The position numbers were made by a program, and so were the translations under genes. Source: Rhizophagus irregularis (Eukaryota > Glomeromycota > Glomeromycetes > Glomerales > Glomeraceae). Taken from it: a stretch of DNA of 64,000 bases. This document shows positions 57,560 to 64,000 of the stretch, piece after piece; the stretch's first letter is position 1, and each line of letters starts with the position of its first letter. The notes under the pieces were generated by a model, which was not told the origin of the DNA, did not search any database, and saw only the letters and a program-made list of their open reading frames with translations. The stretch is from positions 3,348,001 through 3,412,000 of the forward strand of contig NC_089432.1 in the NCBI RefSeq assembly GCF_026210795.1. The letters are read 5' to 3'.

Positions 57560-58290
57560 GGAACACATTACATACATTAATTACTGTACATGTTATCCAG
57601 ATGTAACATGCGTTAATATCATCGCACGTTACTTTTATGTAATATGCGCTAATTTGAACGCATGTTCTCTGATGTAACATGCGGTGATTCAGACGCATGT
57701 TATTCATCTGTAACATGCGATAAATTGGACGCATGTTACCCATCCGTAACATGCAGTGATTCAGATGCATGTTACAGATGGGTAATTATGCATTAATTCT
57801 GGCACATGTTACTCATTCATAATATGCGTTAGTAATTTGGGCGCATGTTACACTTCTGTAATATGCATTAATTCTGGTGCATGTTATTCATCCGTAATAT
57901 GCGCTAATTTAGATGCATGTTACGCTTCTGTAATATGCGTTAATTCTGGTGCATGTTACTCATCCGTAATATGCGTTAATTCTGGTGCATGTTACGCTTC
58001 TGTAATATGCGTTAATTCAGGCGCATGTTATTTATCTGTAATATGCGTTAATTCTGGTGCATGTTTTTCATCCATAATATGCGCTAATTTGGGCGCATGT
58101 TACGAATGAGTAACATGCATTAATTTTGCCGCATGTTACACTTCTGTAACATGCGTTAATTCTGGCGCATGTTACTCATTCATAACATGCGCTAATTTGG
58201 GTGCATGTTACGCTTCTGTAATATACGTTAATTCTGGCACATATTACTCATCCGTAATATGCACTAATTCTGGCACATGTTTCCTAGTAG
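57560..58290. repeat. 36-bp hairpin repeat array, left arm
   Basis: About 20 units of 36 bases, each with a self-complementary GCATGTTAC...GTAACATGC (9-base arms, 6-base loop such as ACTTCT or TCATCC) and a 12-base spacer like GTTAATTCTGGC. Open frames through it (CYASVICVNSGA repeats) follow from the 36-base period and are not genes. Confidence 0.85.
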
Positions 58291-59344: not shown

Positions 59345-60330
59345 TGCATGTTACTGTAGGGAACATGCGCCAGTAACATGTACCCAAATTAGCACATGTT
59401 ACGGATGAGTAATATGCGCCAGAATTAACGCATATTACAGATGAGTAACATGCACCAGAATTAACGCATGTTACAGAAGCGTAACATGTACTAGAATTAA
59501 TGCATGTTATGGATGAGTAACATGCGCCAGAATTAACGCATATTATGGATGAGTAACATGCGCCAGAATTAATGCATGTTACAGAAGCGTAACATGCGTC
59601 TAAATTAGCACATGTTACAGATGAGTAACATGCACCAGAATTAACGCATATTACAGAAGCGTAACATGCGCCCAAATTAGCGCATATTACGAATTAGTAA
59701 TATGCGCCAGAATTAACGCATGTTACGGATGAGTAACATGCGCCAGAATTAACGCATGTTACGGATGAGTAACATGCGCCAGAATTAACGCATATTATGG
59801 ATGAGTGACATACGCCAGAATTAATGCATGTTACAGAAGCGTAACATGCGTCTAAATTAGCGCATGTTACAGATGAGTAACATGCACCAGAATTAACGCA
59901 TATTACAGAAGCGTAACATGCGCCCAAATTAGCGCATATTACGAATGAGTAACATGCGCCAGAATTAATGCATGTTACGGATGAGTAACATGCGCCAGAA
60001 TTAATGCATGTTACGGATGAGTAACATGCGCCAGAATTAACGCATGTTACAGATGAGTAACATGCGCCAGAGTTAACGCATATTATGGATGAGTAACATG
60101 CGCCAGAATTAACACATGTTACAGAAGCGTAACATGCGCCCAAATTAGCGCATATTATGAATGAGTAACATGCATCAGAATTAACGCATATTACCCATCC
60201 GTAACATGCGTCTGAATCACTGCATGTTACAGATAGGTAACATGCGCCCAATTTATCGCATGTTACAGATGAATAACATGCGTCTGAATCACTGCATGTT
60301 ACATCTGAGTAATATGTACAGTAATTAGCG
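59345..60330. repeat. 36-bp hairpin repeat array, right arm
   Basis: About 27 units, mirror image of the left array. Typical unit: GCATGTTAC, loop AGATGA/GGATGA/AGAAGC/GAATGA, GTAACATGC, spacer GCCAGAATTAAC or GCCCAAATTAGC. Loop and spacer types go together (AGAAGC with CCCAAATTAGC or GTCTAAATTAGC), and blocks of several units recur in the same order, showing a higher-order repeat. Confidence 0.85.
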
Positions 60331-60696
60331 CATGTAACGTGTTCCAAAATTAACATGCCAAAATTGCGCATGTCAGGCCAGAATTAAAAATCAGGTCACA
60401 TGACATTAAATTATGGCCCATGGGCCGCCTATATAAGGTTATAACCTATGCATTTGTAACATAAATCGTAAGGTTATAACCTTTGATGATCACCCGAATG
60501 GGGTGGGGTTTGCGTAGAACTGACCAAAATAATCATGTGGATCTTTCCTTTTATAGATAATACCAGCTATAATTTATTTCTTTTTTTAGACGCTGACTGG
60601 CATTATCATAATTCCGGCCCTGAAAAAATGCATAGATCTAATAGTAATTTTTTTTTGGCAGTACCTTACCTCTATATATATAGCTCGGGGTCCTTA

Positions 60697-61121
60697 TTTG
60701 TATATCTGACAATTTTTATTTATTTATTTATTTATTTTATGTGAAGTCGGCAAGAGTTTTCAAAAAGACATGATCGATCCCAAAGAAAAGACCACCAGTT
60801 TAACATAGAACCCATCATCCACCAAGGCCGAAGCCAAGCCAGGCCCTTACTTCTAATTAAATGAAGCCCTATCCCATACTAGTACGTCCAATATAGGATA
60901 GTGAAATCTGACAAATTTTATATGGTAGTTTGTGAGAAATCATAAAATTGTTGTTGTCACGTGACTATTGACACAATAATTCCGGTGCAAAATTTGTTTG
61001 TCATACATGCAAATGCTTATGATCAACATAATACATAATGCATTTTGCATACCCATACTAAAAAAAAGATATTTACATTATCTTATTTAGTCAAAAAGCA
61101 TTTTAATATAATTATATAGTA
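60697..61121. other. Spacer before the acidic gene
   Basis: Starts with a TTTA run and TTTTATGTGAAGTCGG, related to 32.87 kb. No gene found. Should include the promoter of the gene at 61122 if that gene is expressed. Confidence 0.35.
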
Positions 61122-63845
61122 ATGGCTCTCAGTAATGATAAAGGTAATGTATAGTATAAACATTTAATGCAATTAGAATTCATTTAATATTTTTAAACAA
61201 ATTTATAATATAATAAAACTAGTTTCTGGTAATATTGAATTTGAAGGAAGCAGCACTGAAGAATTTGAAGGAAGTGACTCTGGGGAATTCAAAGAAAGTG
61301 ACTCTGAAGAATTTGAAGGAAGTAGTACTAAGGAATATAAAGGTATATTAAACAAACTGAAATATTAAATAAATAATTTAAGTATTATATATAATTTTAC
61401 CTTATATGATACATATATATAATTTAAACTATCTATATTATTCAAATGATTTAGCTTGTAAGTTAATAGGTTATCTTATAATTGAATAACAAAGAAAATA
61501 CTTATTATTTTATTATATTTCATGTAACTGAATAATCCATTTAATGATACTATATCTGTAAGTTATCAGTTATTTTAAATCTTTAGTTCTTTACTTTATT
61601 TATTTTATAAAATAATCAAATAACTAAATTCCTTGTTTAAATGGTAAGTTACAACTTTATATTTATTTGACTAATATTTATATACTTTAACTAATATATT
61701 CTTAATTTAAATAATTAGATTGTAAGTAATATATTTAATTTACAGTAAATACTTTTGTATTATGTTTATATCATTAATTAATAATTGATAATACTACATA
61801 CAGGGTGTGAGTTATATTTATATTTTTATTATTTATATAATTTAAACTAACTATTTAAAAATTATTTTATAATTTTATTAGTTGGTAAGTTATAAATTAT
61901 TTATTTAATTCTATTATATTACTCATTTACATAATATTTACATATAATTTAAACTAACTAAATTCTTTATTTAATAGATCATAAGTTATAAGTTATTTAT
62001 TTAATTCTATTATTACTTTAACATATAATTTAAACTAACTAAATTCTTTATTTAAAAATTATTTATAGAGTGTAAGTTATTTATTTTTTATTACATACAA
62101 TTTATATAATTTAAGCTAACTAAATTCTTTATTTAAAAAATTATTTTGTAATTTTTTTAGTTAGAAGTAGCATCGAAGAATTTGAGGAAAATGACTCTGA
62201 AGAATTCAAAGGAAATGACTCTGAAGAATTTGAAGAAAGTAGTACTAATGAATCTAAAGGTATATTAAACAAACTGAAATATTAAATTTTTGTTTGTAAA
62301 TAATTTGAATACTATACCTTATATGATGCACAAATATAATTTAAACTATCTTATATTATACAAAAATTATTTTAAATAATTTAGCTCGTAAGTTGATAAG
62401 ATAACTTATAATTGAACAATAATGGGATTACTTACTATTTAATTATATTTCATGTAACTAAATAATTTATTTAATGCATAATAATACTATAGTCAGTAAG
62501 TTATCAGTTATTGTTCTTTACTTTACTTATTTTATAAAATATTCAAATAACTAAATTTTTTGTTTTAATAATTAATTATATTACAGATGGTAAGTTACAA
62601 CATTATATTTATTTGACAAATATTTTATATATTTTAACTAATTATATTCTTAATTTAAATAATTAGATTGTTAGTAATATATTTAATTTACAGTAAATAT
62701 TTTGTACTATGTTTACATCCAATTAATTAATAATTAATAATACTACATAAAGGGTGTAAGTTATATTTATATTTCTATTATTAATATAATTTAAACTAAC
62801 TAAATAATTTTATTTAAAAATTATTTTGTAATTTTTATTTAGTTGGTAAGTTATAAATTATTTATTTAATTCTATTATATTACTCATTATATAATATTTA
62901 CATATAATTTAAACTAACTAAATTCTTTATTTAAAAATTATTTAATAATATAGGGAGTAAGTTATTTATTTAATTCTATTATAACTTATTTATATAATAT
63001 TTATATATAATTTAAACTAACTAAATTTTTTATTTAAATAGATTGTAAGTTATAAGTTATTTAGTTCTATTATTACCTATTTATATAATATTTACATATA
63101 ATTTAAACTAACTAAATTCCTTATTTAAAAATTATTTTGTAATTTTATTTAGTTGGTAAGTTTAAGTTATTTATTTATTTATTTCTATTATTACTTATTT
63201 ACATAACATTTATAATAATTTAAACTACTTAATTCTTCATTCAATAATTTTATTTAGTTGGTAAGTTATAAGTTATCTATTTAATTTTATTATTACTTAT
63301 TTATGTAATATTTTACATATACTGTAATTTAAATTAACTAAATTTTCTATTTAATAGATTGTAAGTTACAAGTTATTTAATTCTATTATTACTTATTTAT
63401 ATAACTAAATTCTTTATTTAAATAGATTGTAAGTTATAGGTTATATTTATTTTACTTATTTATATAATATTTACATATAATTTAAACTAACTAAATTCTT
63501 TTTTAAAAAAAATTATTTAATAAATATAGGGAGTAAGTTATTAATTAATTCTATTATTACTTATTTATACTAACTAAATTCTTTATTGGAAAATTATTTA
63601 ATAATATAGGGGGTAAGTTGTTTATTTAATTCTATTATTACTTATTTATATAATATTTACATATAATTTAAACTAATTAATGCTTTATGATATCTAAAAA
63701 ATTATTGTATAATTTATGAATTTTTGTATGAAGGCTTGGCGTGGCCTTTCAAAGAAATGGTCATTCCACAAATTTATACAGTGCTGAAATTTCTGTCATG
63801 TGACTTTATCATTTCTCTATTTCAGTTCTGCGCCCTTTTAAGTAA
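61122..63845 (+). CDS. Putative acidic-repeat gene with an array of three-base microexons
   Basis: Ordinary exons: 61122-61143 (MALSNDK, ends in phase 1), 61223-61342 (40 codons, FEGSSTEEFEGSD-type acidic repeats) and 62161-62259 (33 codons, related: IEEFEENDSEEFKGND). All join in one frame, each followed by GGTATATT or GGTAATG donors. Between and after them lie units starting GTAAGT, most with a CTAAC branch-like site, ending TAG or CAG, and separated by exactly three bases: for example 61455-61457, 61719-61721, 61882-61884, 62385-62387, 62493-62495, 62587-62589, 62843-62845, 62954-62956, 63042-63044, 63153-63155, 63258-63260, 63358-63360, 63426-63428, 63530-63532 and 63610-63612. Joining the 14 pieces after 62259 reads ALNDWFGNFVDYWR without a stop; a possible last exon at 63826-63845 adds a stop. 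No known family. Expression unproven. Confidence 0.4.
61440..63620 (+). repeat. Tandem intron-like repeat array
   Basis: About 20 units of roughly 65-130 bases. Consensus: GTAAGTTATAAGTTATTTAT, TTCTATTATTACTTATTTAT, ATAATTTAAACTAACTAAAT, TCTTTATTTAAAAATTATTT and TAG. A first set (61440-62160) and the start of the second (62340-62850) align unit by unit, showing a duplication of about 920 bases that included the acidic exon. In the first set two units lack the AG and one donor is mutated to ATAAGT, while the second set keeps nearly all sites (one donor is GTTAGT). Confidence 0.8.
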
Positions 63846-64000
63846 TTATGACATGAAAACTCTTTCCCTTTTTTATGTTTTGTTAGTTTTCTGCTAATTT
63901 AGCGCAAGTTTTTTTTTTTTAGTTTCTATTAGAAACACCAAAGGGGAGAGGCCCAACTGGGTTTTTTGTTCTATACATACCCACATAATAAGGGATTATG
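63846..64000. other. Window end
   Basis: T-rich DNA, no gene seen. Confidence 0.3.

Follow-up and report, generated by a model that had tools for sequence, protein, structure and literature searches.

Positions 61122 to 63845 of the window, which is the whole 64,000-nucleotide stretch of DNA analyzed here, hold a damaged and partly degenerate copy of a gene from a large Rhizophagus irregularis family, with no kinase exon nearby. On the evidence of the sequence, genes of this family probably contain runs of one-codon exons. In the fuller members, the short start exon ends in phase 1 and would be followed by 9 to 57 three-base exons, a one-base exon (A), and the exons of a protein kinase, and in some of them an acidic exon, also in phase 1, would stand between the start exon and the array. 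The spacing seen in the window recurs across the genome, where chance is excluded because the count for a three-base gap between tandem introns lies far above those for gaps of two, four, and six bases and above the reversed-pattern controls.

All features of the window copy lie on the forward (+) strand. Putative exon 1 spans 61122 to 61143 (ATG GCT CTC AGT AAT GAT AAA G) and ends in phase 1; homologous start exons of the form M-x-x-x-x-x-[KER]-G precede other arrays. Exon 2 (61223 to 61342) is acidic, consists of E/S/D-rich 24-bp repeats, and is in phase 1 at both ends; similar acidic exons are found in loci L010, L024, and L030. The first array follows, with five intact units: CTT (61455 to 61457, in the context AG-CTT-GTAAGT) and AGT (62069 to 62071), both read by eye only, and ATT (61719 to 61721), GGT (61804 to 61806, donor GTGAGT), and TTG (61882 to 61884), which were seen in the sequence and in the donor scan. 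At least three further units, read by eye, are damaged. At 61558 to 61563, the donor GTAAGT is kept and the preceding acceptor is lost (TATAT versus TATAG in array 2, at about 62480 to 62500); at 61641 to 61649, ATG and GTAAGT stand without an acceptor (compare about 62575 to 62595); and at 61978 to 61986, the unit ATC has the donor ATAAGT, with GT changed to AT at 61981. Exon 3 (62161 to 62259) is acidic and made of 24-bp repeats like exon 2, again in phase 1 at both ends.

The second array has 14 intact units between 62385 and 63612. Its triplets are, in order, CTC (62385 to 62387; a CTC or CTT start recurs in other arrays), TCA (62493 to 62495), ATG (62587 to 62589), ATT (62667 to 62669), GGT (62753 to 62755), TTG (62843 to 62845), GGA (62954 to 62956), ATT (63042 to 63044), TTG (63153 to 63155), TTG (63258 to 63260), ATT (63358 to 63360), ATT (63426 to 63428), GGA (63530 to 63532), and GGG (63610 to 63612), the last recognizable one. 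The donor after the first ATT reads GTTAGT, and this unit type occurs at 97 places in the genome with up to two mismatches; the T of the same triplet would form a tryptophan codon with the GG of the next. A last intron-like unit (63613 to 63700, read by eye) is degenerating and has no clear acceptor, and neither a kinase exon nor a one-base exon was recognized by eye in the following 6.4 kb, covering the rest of the window and the next 6 kb (locus L003). Within bases 60001 to 64000, AG lies exactly three bases upstream of 18 of the 20 GTRAGT donors. The tandem GTAAGT...AG units with three-base gaps described in the initial annotation are thus present, and its statement that the 14 triplets of the second set join without a stop was also borne out: the joined peptide, ALNDWFGNFVDYWR, is correct, its first A using the G carried over from exon 3. 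A genome search for a contiguous relative of a joined array peptide, made with one 39-residue query, gave no match and was uninformative.

Genome-wide, the pattern GTRAGT-N(60-90)-AG-N(k)-GTRAGT has 3023 matches for k=3, versus 242 for the reversed-pattern control. The corresponding numbers are 82 (control, 143) for k=2, 107 (control, 156) for k=4, and 164 (control, 98) for k=6. A comparison with other AG-to-GT gaps close to this one had been proposed in the initial annotation, and its outcome favors a gap of exactly three. Across 27 arrays, AG lies three bases 5' of 790 of 801 strong donors; for the other 11, the nearest AG is at one base (n=2), at five bases (n=1), or missing within 40 bases (n=8). 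The counts of 801 donors and of 924 units comprise 26 kinase-type arrays plus L002, which enters none of the 26-array pools; the kinase-type pools leave out L003 (no array), L013 and L014 (another gene type), L023 (one unit), and L031 (second intron family). The tiny putative exons of these runs thus keep to a multiple of three, as do those of schistosome micro-exon genes.

The array introns look like ordinary spliceosomal introns (GTAAGT...CTAAC...TAG) with a median length of 95 nt, a value bounded by the chaining of units up to 135 bases apart with longer gaps penalized. A CTRAY or TTAAC motif is absent from the last 60 nt of 140 of the 808 introns, and retention of the intron would lead to a stop in 803 of the 808 cases. 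The reading frame around the arrays follows a common scheme. The exon before the array supplies one base, and the kinase exon requires two upstream bases in 19 of the 20 loci with a script-found kinase exon (27 loci were examined, and the acceptor had to precede A), so that a direct fit fails. A one-base exon A between array and kinase exon, which would restore the frame, is present in eight of the nine loci of the first set with a kinase exon; in the 12 loci fetched later, it was part of the search pattern. The start-exon search matched 14 of 16 loci, and since its pattern demanded phase 1, these matches confirm homology and not phase.

Stop codons formed across the putative introns are avoided in one phase. 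In phase 1, that of the upstream exons read before the arrays, the 829 adjacent triplet pairs of the 26 kinase-type arrays contain no stop, versus 27.6 expected from shuffling of their order. The same holds when each distinct pair is counted once (0 of 318; 5000 shuffles gave a mean of 15.1 and never fewer than 6). In phase 2, stops are about as frequent as expected (47 versus 46.2). The 12 loci fetched after the hypothesis had been formed again have no stops in phase 1 (11.87 expected) and 61 in phase 2 (50.6 expected). Triplets that are themselves stops (phase 0) number five, two of them chain artifacts at array ends, versus 27.5 expected from independent base composition; these are therefore also rarer than composition predicts, and only the across-intron test is phase specific. 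Moreover, the least variable base of the triplet is the third codon position in all 25 phase-1 arrays of 10 or more units (L019, with nine units, is left out of this entropy count). The initial annotation had proposed an extreme micro-exon gene, and the main sequence tests, including the absence of stops in the later loci, support that reading.

A second intron family obeys the same rule. L002 has 69 chained units, and its introns are, by eye, unrelated to those of the main family. It shows no stops in phase 2 (0.77 expected), the phase required by its next exon, versus three in phase 0 and six in phase 1. Units 1 and 2 share a split Met codon that may be the start (by eye), and the least variable base is again the third codon position, although this is a different base of the triplet than in the phase-1 arrays. 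A short array of this family, L031, is less regular. Of its chained units, the first three seem spurious; one stop occurs in phase 1 and none in phase 2; the exon that follows has two usable acceptors, giving phase 1 or 2; and the least variable base of the array is N3, versus N1 predicted.

The triplets are far more variable than the introns that adjoin them, and the same intron sequence is found in arrays on many contigs. One identical flank of 25+30 nt carries 13 different triplets over seven loci. In pairs without any flank substitution, 30 to 58% of the triplet sites differ (three samples from 15 kinase-type arrays; the comparison also took in L002). The unit alignments cover 10 arrays, one set having been cut to a random 140 units. 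Within groups of identical flanks, differences number 75 at N1, 61 at N2, and 76 at N3, a codon-position signature of selection that has the expected direction and is not strong. A gradient of divergence near differing triplets, expected if conversion stopped at selected triplets, was not found in 1111 pairs from kinase-type arrays, where divergence is 0.034 in the six sites nearest to a differing triplet and 0.09 in the farthest; in L002, it is higher in the nearest bin (0.161, 29 pairs). Duplications of multi-unit blocks are plain in L009, L015, and L022. Block duplications were also picked out from equal spacings only; in the 15 of these 23 runs with intron divergence below 0.15, differences fall on 4 of 150 internal triplet sites, 21 of 5985 intron sites, and 27 of 90 boundary triplets. 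In L015 the triplets travel, by eye, with the 3' end of the preceding intron. Targeted hypermutation of every triplet, suggested by identical flanks with different triplets, is not needed, since very recent copies mostly keep their triplets.

Chance or a plain minisatellite is ruled out by the three-specific spacing, measured with reversed-pattern controls, together with the phase-specific stop test. The arrays might instead be noncoding tandem duplicates of introns, removed as one large intron, with the triplets never entering the mRNA. The block duplications are in keeping with this, and duplication alone would preserve the spacing; to that extent, the argument of the initial annotation that noncoding repeats would have no reason to keep a fixed gap loses force. 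Against this reading, splice sites and the three-base length are kept while the bases vary freely, and stops across introns are missing in the predicted phase but not in phase 2; free substitution of triplets at constant number, combined with the phase-specific absence of stops, is unexplained by duplication alone. A single large intron, which the initial annotation had named as a refuting outcome, would also bring a phase-1 exon against a phase-2 kinase exon; of the 12 loci with both a start exon and a kinase exon, 11 would lose the frame if the two were joined directly. The exception is L005, where the script placed the kinase exon in another phase without a one-base exon, possibly by error. 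We regard this explanation as quite improbable. Less probable still is that the units are recursive-splicing (ratchet) points within a large intron, with the three bases erratically lost or kept. Such points have acceptor and donor almost back to back, as here, but in known ratchet points AG stands directly before GT and no exon is left; among 575 donors of the first 18 regions, AG is at distance three for 523 and immediately before the donor for two. Re-splicing that leaves three bases would give the same mRNA as micro-exons unless units were skipped, and the phase-specific avoidance of stops suggests that the triplets are read.

A different question is how the arrays arose. Propagating introns, an alternative given in the initial annotation, may have been the route, in view of near-identical introns beside differing triplets. 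In its specific form, mobile introns of the introner-like type would have invaded a coding stretch between codons, so that the triplets would be old and the introns young. This agrees with the 13 triplets found on one flank, with the extent of triplet difference at zero flank substitution, and with divergence not being raised beside differing triplets in kinase-type arrays. Against it, random insertion should also leave exons of 6, 9, and 12 nt, and the spacing is three almost throughout, in short arrays too; paralogous arrays differ in length, from 9 to 57 units; internal triplets are copied together with duplicated blocks; and in L015 triplets go with the preceding intron end. We consider this origin rather unlikely. 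An assembly or base-calling artifact is hardly credible: the assembly is Nanopore based and the repeats are AT rich, but two unrelated intron families obey the same rule and 26 arrays are frame consistent. The assembly is also described as polished to Q36 (PMC10234402).

If the arrays are runs of one-codon exons, as we infer from their sequence, each unit would be spliced and translated. Intron definition would recognize each intron by its very strong donor and short length, and the introns would be removed singly, each removal adding one codon's worth to a growing exon, so that an intron would interrupt every real codon. The array would then encode a segment of variable length and sequence ahead of the kinase domain. 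The two kinase-body translations searched (L012 and L008) both match PF07714/PF00069, with E values from 2.9e-27 to 1.7e-33; the downstream protein of L012 matches PF07714 (1.7e-33) and PF00069 (3.6e-33). In the same protein-family search, the N-terminal exon of L012 and a stretch of L031 had no family match, and the coiled coil of L002 gave two weak matches below curated cutoffs. Inspection of the start exons by eye showed no evident signal peptide; some of them begin with MGQC, which would presumably suit myristoylation.

Several known systems share features with these genes. Aphid bicycle genes have longer exons and are not known to contain tandem near-identical introns. They share a fast-evolving protein and a gene structure better conserved than sequence, but are putative insect effectors (PMC9168663). 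Schistosome micro-exon genes, which have been proposed as a source of protein variation, likewise build much of a protein from consecutive tiny symmetric exons that allow in-frame skipping and gain; their exons, however, measure 6 to 36 bp and account for about 80% of the coding region, and their products are almost always secreted or membrane anchored (PMC5825161). In Rhizophagus, the exons would be uniformly of 3 nt, the array precedes a kinase domain whose ordinary exons form most of the protein, and the introns are near-identical repeats, with the exons as the variable part in runs of tens. Single-nucleotide exons are reported for Arabidopsis APC11 (PMC4674806) and Fusarium CYP621A, the latter presented as the second exon of its kind and the first from a fungal gene and restoring the frame as would be the case between array and kinase exon here (PMC12940212). 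Those exons are isolated, whereas the one-base exon of Rhizophagus recurs in a family after an array of three-base exons. Fungal introner-like elements are also near-identical introns multiplied across a genome, but they are reported as separate gains, with four genes carrying two each, and not tandem with one codon between them (PMC4457414). The titles and abstract openings listed by the searches held no description of three-nucleotide exon arrays or micro-exons in Rhizophagus, a weak negative, and the gene set is apparently undescribed.

A unit of one intron plus exactly three bases would allow gain, loss, skipping, and exchange of units without disturbing the frame. We infer that introns recombine unequally and that the array segment is under diversifying selection, perhaps for recognition; alternative inclusion of units may also occur. 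A tentative extension, which we hold to be somewhat doubtful, is a genome-wide system of codon-by-codon diversification, in which thousands of single-codon exons between homogenized introns would permit frame-safe addition, loss, skipping, and recombination between genes, giving a hypervariable recognition segment before a conserved kinase. If the arrays are spliced as proposed, a single gene would carry an unbroken run of tens of three-base exons, and several thousand would exist in the genome, about 7,000 by rough extrapolation. Such variable segments would easily be missed by ordinary gene prediction, and annotation unable to call three-nucleotide exons would omit them. Exons too small to accommodate a pair of spliceosomes simultaneously would be commonplace in R. 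irregularis, a root symbiont of many crop plants, offering a natural system to test intron definition and ordered splicing. Conservation would be inverted, with hypervariable codons set between introns that hardly change, which would be an uncommon route to a variable protein region.

Tandem introns beginning with GTAAGT and separated by exactly three bases, which the initial annotation had described as a run of three-base microexons at 61122-63845, were confirmed in the window, bases 3348001-3412000 of contig C4, where the second set comprises 14 intact units (one intron plus one triplet) and the first set comprises five intact units and at least three damaged ones. The spacing was also sought across the 146.7-Mb assembly of 32 contigs, as had been proposed, using the pattern GTRAGT, 60 to 90 bases, AG, k bases, and GTRAGT, with the reversed pattern as a control. 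A gap of three bases gave 3023 matches versus 242 for the control. The corresponding values were 82 versus 143 for k = 2, 107 versus 156 for k = 4, and 164 versus 98 for k = 6, where many of the matches listed belong to another repeat. For comparison, 31 loci were fetched from the genome. Counting the window plus the first 17 loci that have candidate arrays, 523 of 575 strong donors are preceded by an AG at exactly three bases; inside 27 arrays the figure is 790 of 801, and for the other 11 donors the nearest AG is at 1 base (2 donors) or 5 bases (1 donor), or there is none within 40 bases (8 donors). These 27 arrays contain 924 units in total but just 380 strict pairs of the k = 3 type, from which a rough extrapolation suggests that the genome may hold some 7,000 units. 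One unit type, which in many arrays stands close to the 5' end, has 97 genome matches at up to two mismatches (control, 0), counted as about 90 loci because some loci hold two or more matches and some matches represent a similar inner unit.

When the triplets are joined, each codon is made of the third base of one unit and the first two of the next (N3+N1N2), spanning an intron of about 95 bases. No stop occurs in this phase in the first 15 kinase-type arrays, which belong to the main family, whose fuller members have a protein kinase exon downstream. Identical chaining code was run on 12 further loci picked by their 3' end pattern alone, one of which (L023) has a single unit, with expectations taken from random reorderings of the triplets within each array. 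These loci gave 0 stops versus 11.87 expected, and 61 versus 50.6 expected in phase 2. In the 26 arrays pooled, 0 of 829 pairs form a stop versus 27.6 expected. Because blocks are duplicated, distinct pairs were also counted once: 0 of 318 form a stop, versus a mean of 15.1 and a minimum of 6 in 5000 shuffles, with 47 stops versus 46.2 expected in phase 2. Triplets that are stops as such are also rare (5 of 855, versus 27.5 under independent bases, a null that ignores the shared descent of the triplets), perhaps because an overlapping donor arises where TAA or TGA stands between AG and GT. The case for coding triplets is built on the across-intron test and not on this scarcity.

The flanking exons, as read from the sequence, fit the same frame. 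A short start exon (e.g., MAQSNDK-G, MGQCISK-G, or MDQCIDK-G) ends one base into a codon, as does the acidic exon that follows it in some genes. Arrays often open with CTC-T[TC]N-NNN-ATT-GGT (Ala-Leu-x-Asp/Asn-Trp) and often end with CTT-TTG, followed by TTTAG|A|GTAAGT, a 1-nt exon (A), and then the kinase exon. The frame of the latter is set by the conserved segment ..SG.KI.D.FI..KLKWIPYNKFKN.EYL..GGFGTIYKA, and the exon opens with one base of a codon. If the start or acidic exon is joined directly to the kinase exon, the reading frame is lost; inserting the 1-nt exon, together with any number of triplets, restores it. A script looked for the conserved segment plus an acceptor with A directly after it; of 27 loci, 20 yielded a kinase exon, and 19 of these have the expected phase. 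In the exception, L005, the script probably took an inner acceptor. Of the 9 loci in the first set that have a kinase exon, 8 also have the 1-nt exon; in the 12 later loci its presence is no evidence, since the pattern used to select them already contains it. Farther downstream, exons match protein kinase models (PF07714, 1.7e-33, in L012). The kinase exons of L012, L004, and L006 have the catalytic loop H-C-D-x-H-D-G-N and D-L-G as the DFG motif. The proteins of L004, L022, and L005 start with MGQC or MGQS, which would suit N-myristoylation, and paralogues start with MAQ, MAH, MDQ, and similar. In L011, L005, L017, and L027, the array seems to be broken within one intron by unrelated sequence a few hundred bases long, as might follow from the insertion of a mobile element.

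Conservation within the units is inverted. Alignment of units from 10 arrays places the three exonic columns among the least conserved (identity of roughly 0.3 to 0.8 by decile), and most intron columns reach 0.8 to 0.99, a few being as variable as the exonic ones. Where two units show no substitution over 50 or more flanking sites, 30 to 58% of triplet sites differ (three samples, 15 kinase-type arrays). One 25+30-base flank common to seven loci encloses 13 different triplets. More than one triplet occurs in 20 of the 70 identical-flank groups with at least two units; the triplet pairs in such groups number 29 with one differing site, 39 with two, and 35 with three. The 25+30-base flank alone supplies 78 of the 103 pairs, and the corresponding counts from within single loci are 11, 14, and 9. 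When false triplets were taken at eight other offsets, 0 to 8 of 55 to 68 groups varied, with at most three two-site differences per offset and no three-site difference. In all 25 phase-1 arrays of at least 10 units, variation is lowest at the codon third position; these are not 25 independent cases, given that kinase-type arrays are related. The number of triplet bases stays at three despite heavy substitution, and intron lengths of 60 to 129 (bounds set by the chaining rule) leave about equal modulo-3 remainders (277, 275, and 256). Alike introns with different codons may result from conversion acting against selection, or they may result from intron copying.

A second intron family occurs in L002 (C1:1723676-1731445), where 69 units were chained whose introns (CTAAT...ACCAG) are unrelated by eye. 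Here stops are absent from phase 2 (0.77 expected), with three in phase 0 and six in phase 1, and the next exon, by eye, needs phase 2. A Met codon split over the first two units is possibly the start. Of the 43 occurrences of the acceptor motif, 34 lie in L002 and the other 9 at C17:3901245-3902841 in L031, where a kinase exon bearing two CxxC pairs follows. Stop counts in L031 are too small to weigh (phase 2, none versus 0.61 expected; phase 1, one versus 0.77), and two readable acceptors of its next exon give phase 1 or phase 2. The codon third position is again the least variable in L002, though it is a different triplet base; L031 disagrees.

The window copy carries the family start exon, a pair of acidic exons, and two arrays, in which three or more units are damaged; inspection by eye to 6 kb past the window revealed neither a recognizable 1-nt exon nor a kinase exon. 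This copy has probably been truncated or is decaying, which would explain why the finding seemed strange in isolation. Upstream of the gene lies a 36-bp minisatellite of about 27 copies (59372-60335), with related 36-bp repeats at 58000-58281.

What the sequence itself shows is the anatomy, the three-base spacing, the phase-specific avoidance of stops, the fit of the frame, the inverted conservation, and the duplication of blocks. The donor is GTAAGT in 725 of 855 units, and such strong donors with short introns would allow splicing by intron definition. Since two spliceosome complexes cannot share three bases, the introns would be removed in an order, every step joining three more bases, so that the product would be a segment of about 9 to 57 residues ahead of the kinase domain. 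Units would be added or removed, always in frame, when near-identical introns undergo unequal exchange, and selection would keep the segment open while letting, or driving, its residues vary. From this pattern of variation, a role in recognition may be guessed.

Tiny exons of other kinds occur in the same genome. On the minus strand, L014 (C14:3874000-3878500) has a signal-peptide-like first exon and then exons of 3, 6, and 8 nt between unrelated introns; these join by eye to a cysteine-rich stretch, and the locus looks like a secreted peptide gene of the micro-exon type. L013 (C13:247000-253500, minus strand) has a long run of apparent 3- to 12-nt exons, many of them 6 nt long, whose introns are of a further type, and 12 of its 25 strong donors have an AG at 6.

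The nearest known kind is the micro-exon genes of schistosomes, whose exons measure 6 to 36 bp (PMC5825161), in contrast to the apparent three-base exons here. Single-nucleotide exons are known in Arabidopsis (PMC4674806) and Fusarium (PMC12940212), the smallest before the Arabidopsis case being 3 nt (alternatively spliced) and 6 nt (constitutive), according to PMC4674806. Introner-like elements multiply introns, but codon-spaced tandems go unmentioned in the abstract of PMC4457414. Such triplet arrays are described in none of the literature matches listed, from a search with bioRxiv and most subscription journals outside its scope. If transcripts confirm the arrays, this codon-by-codon design may merit a class of its own.
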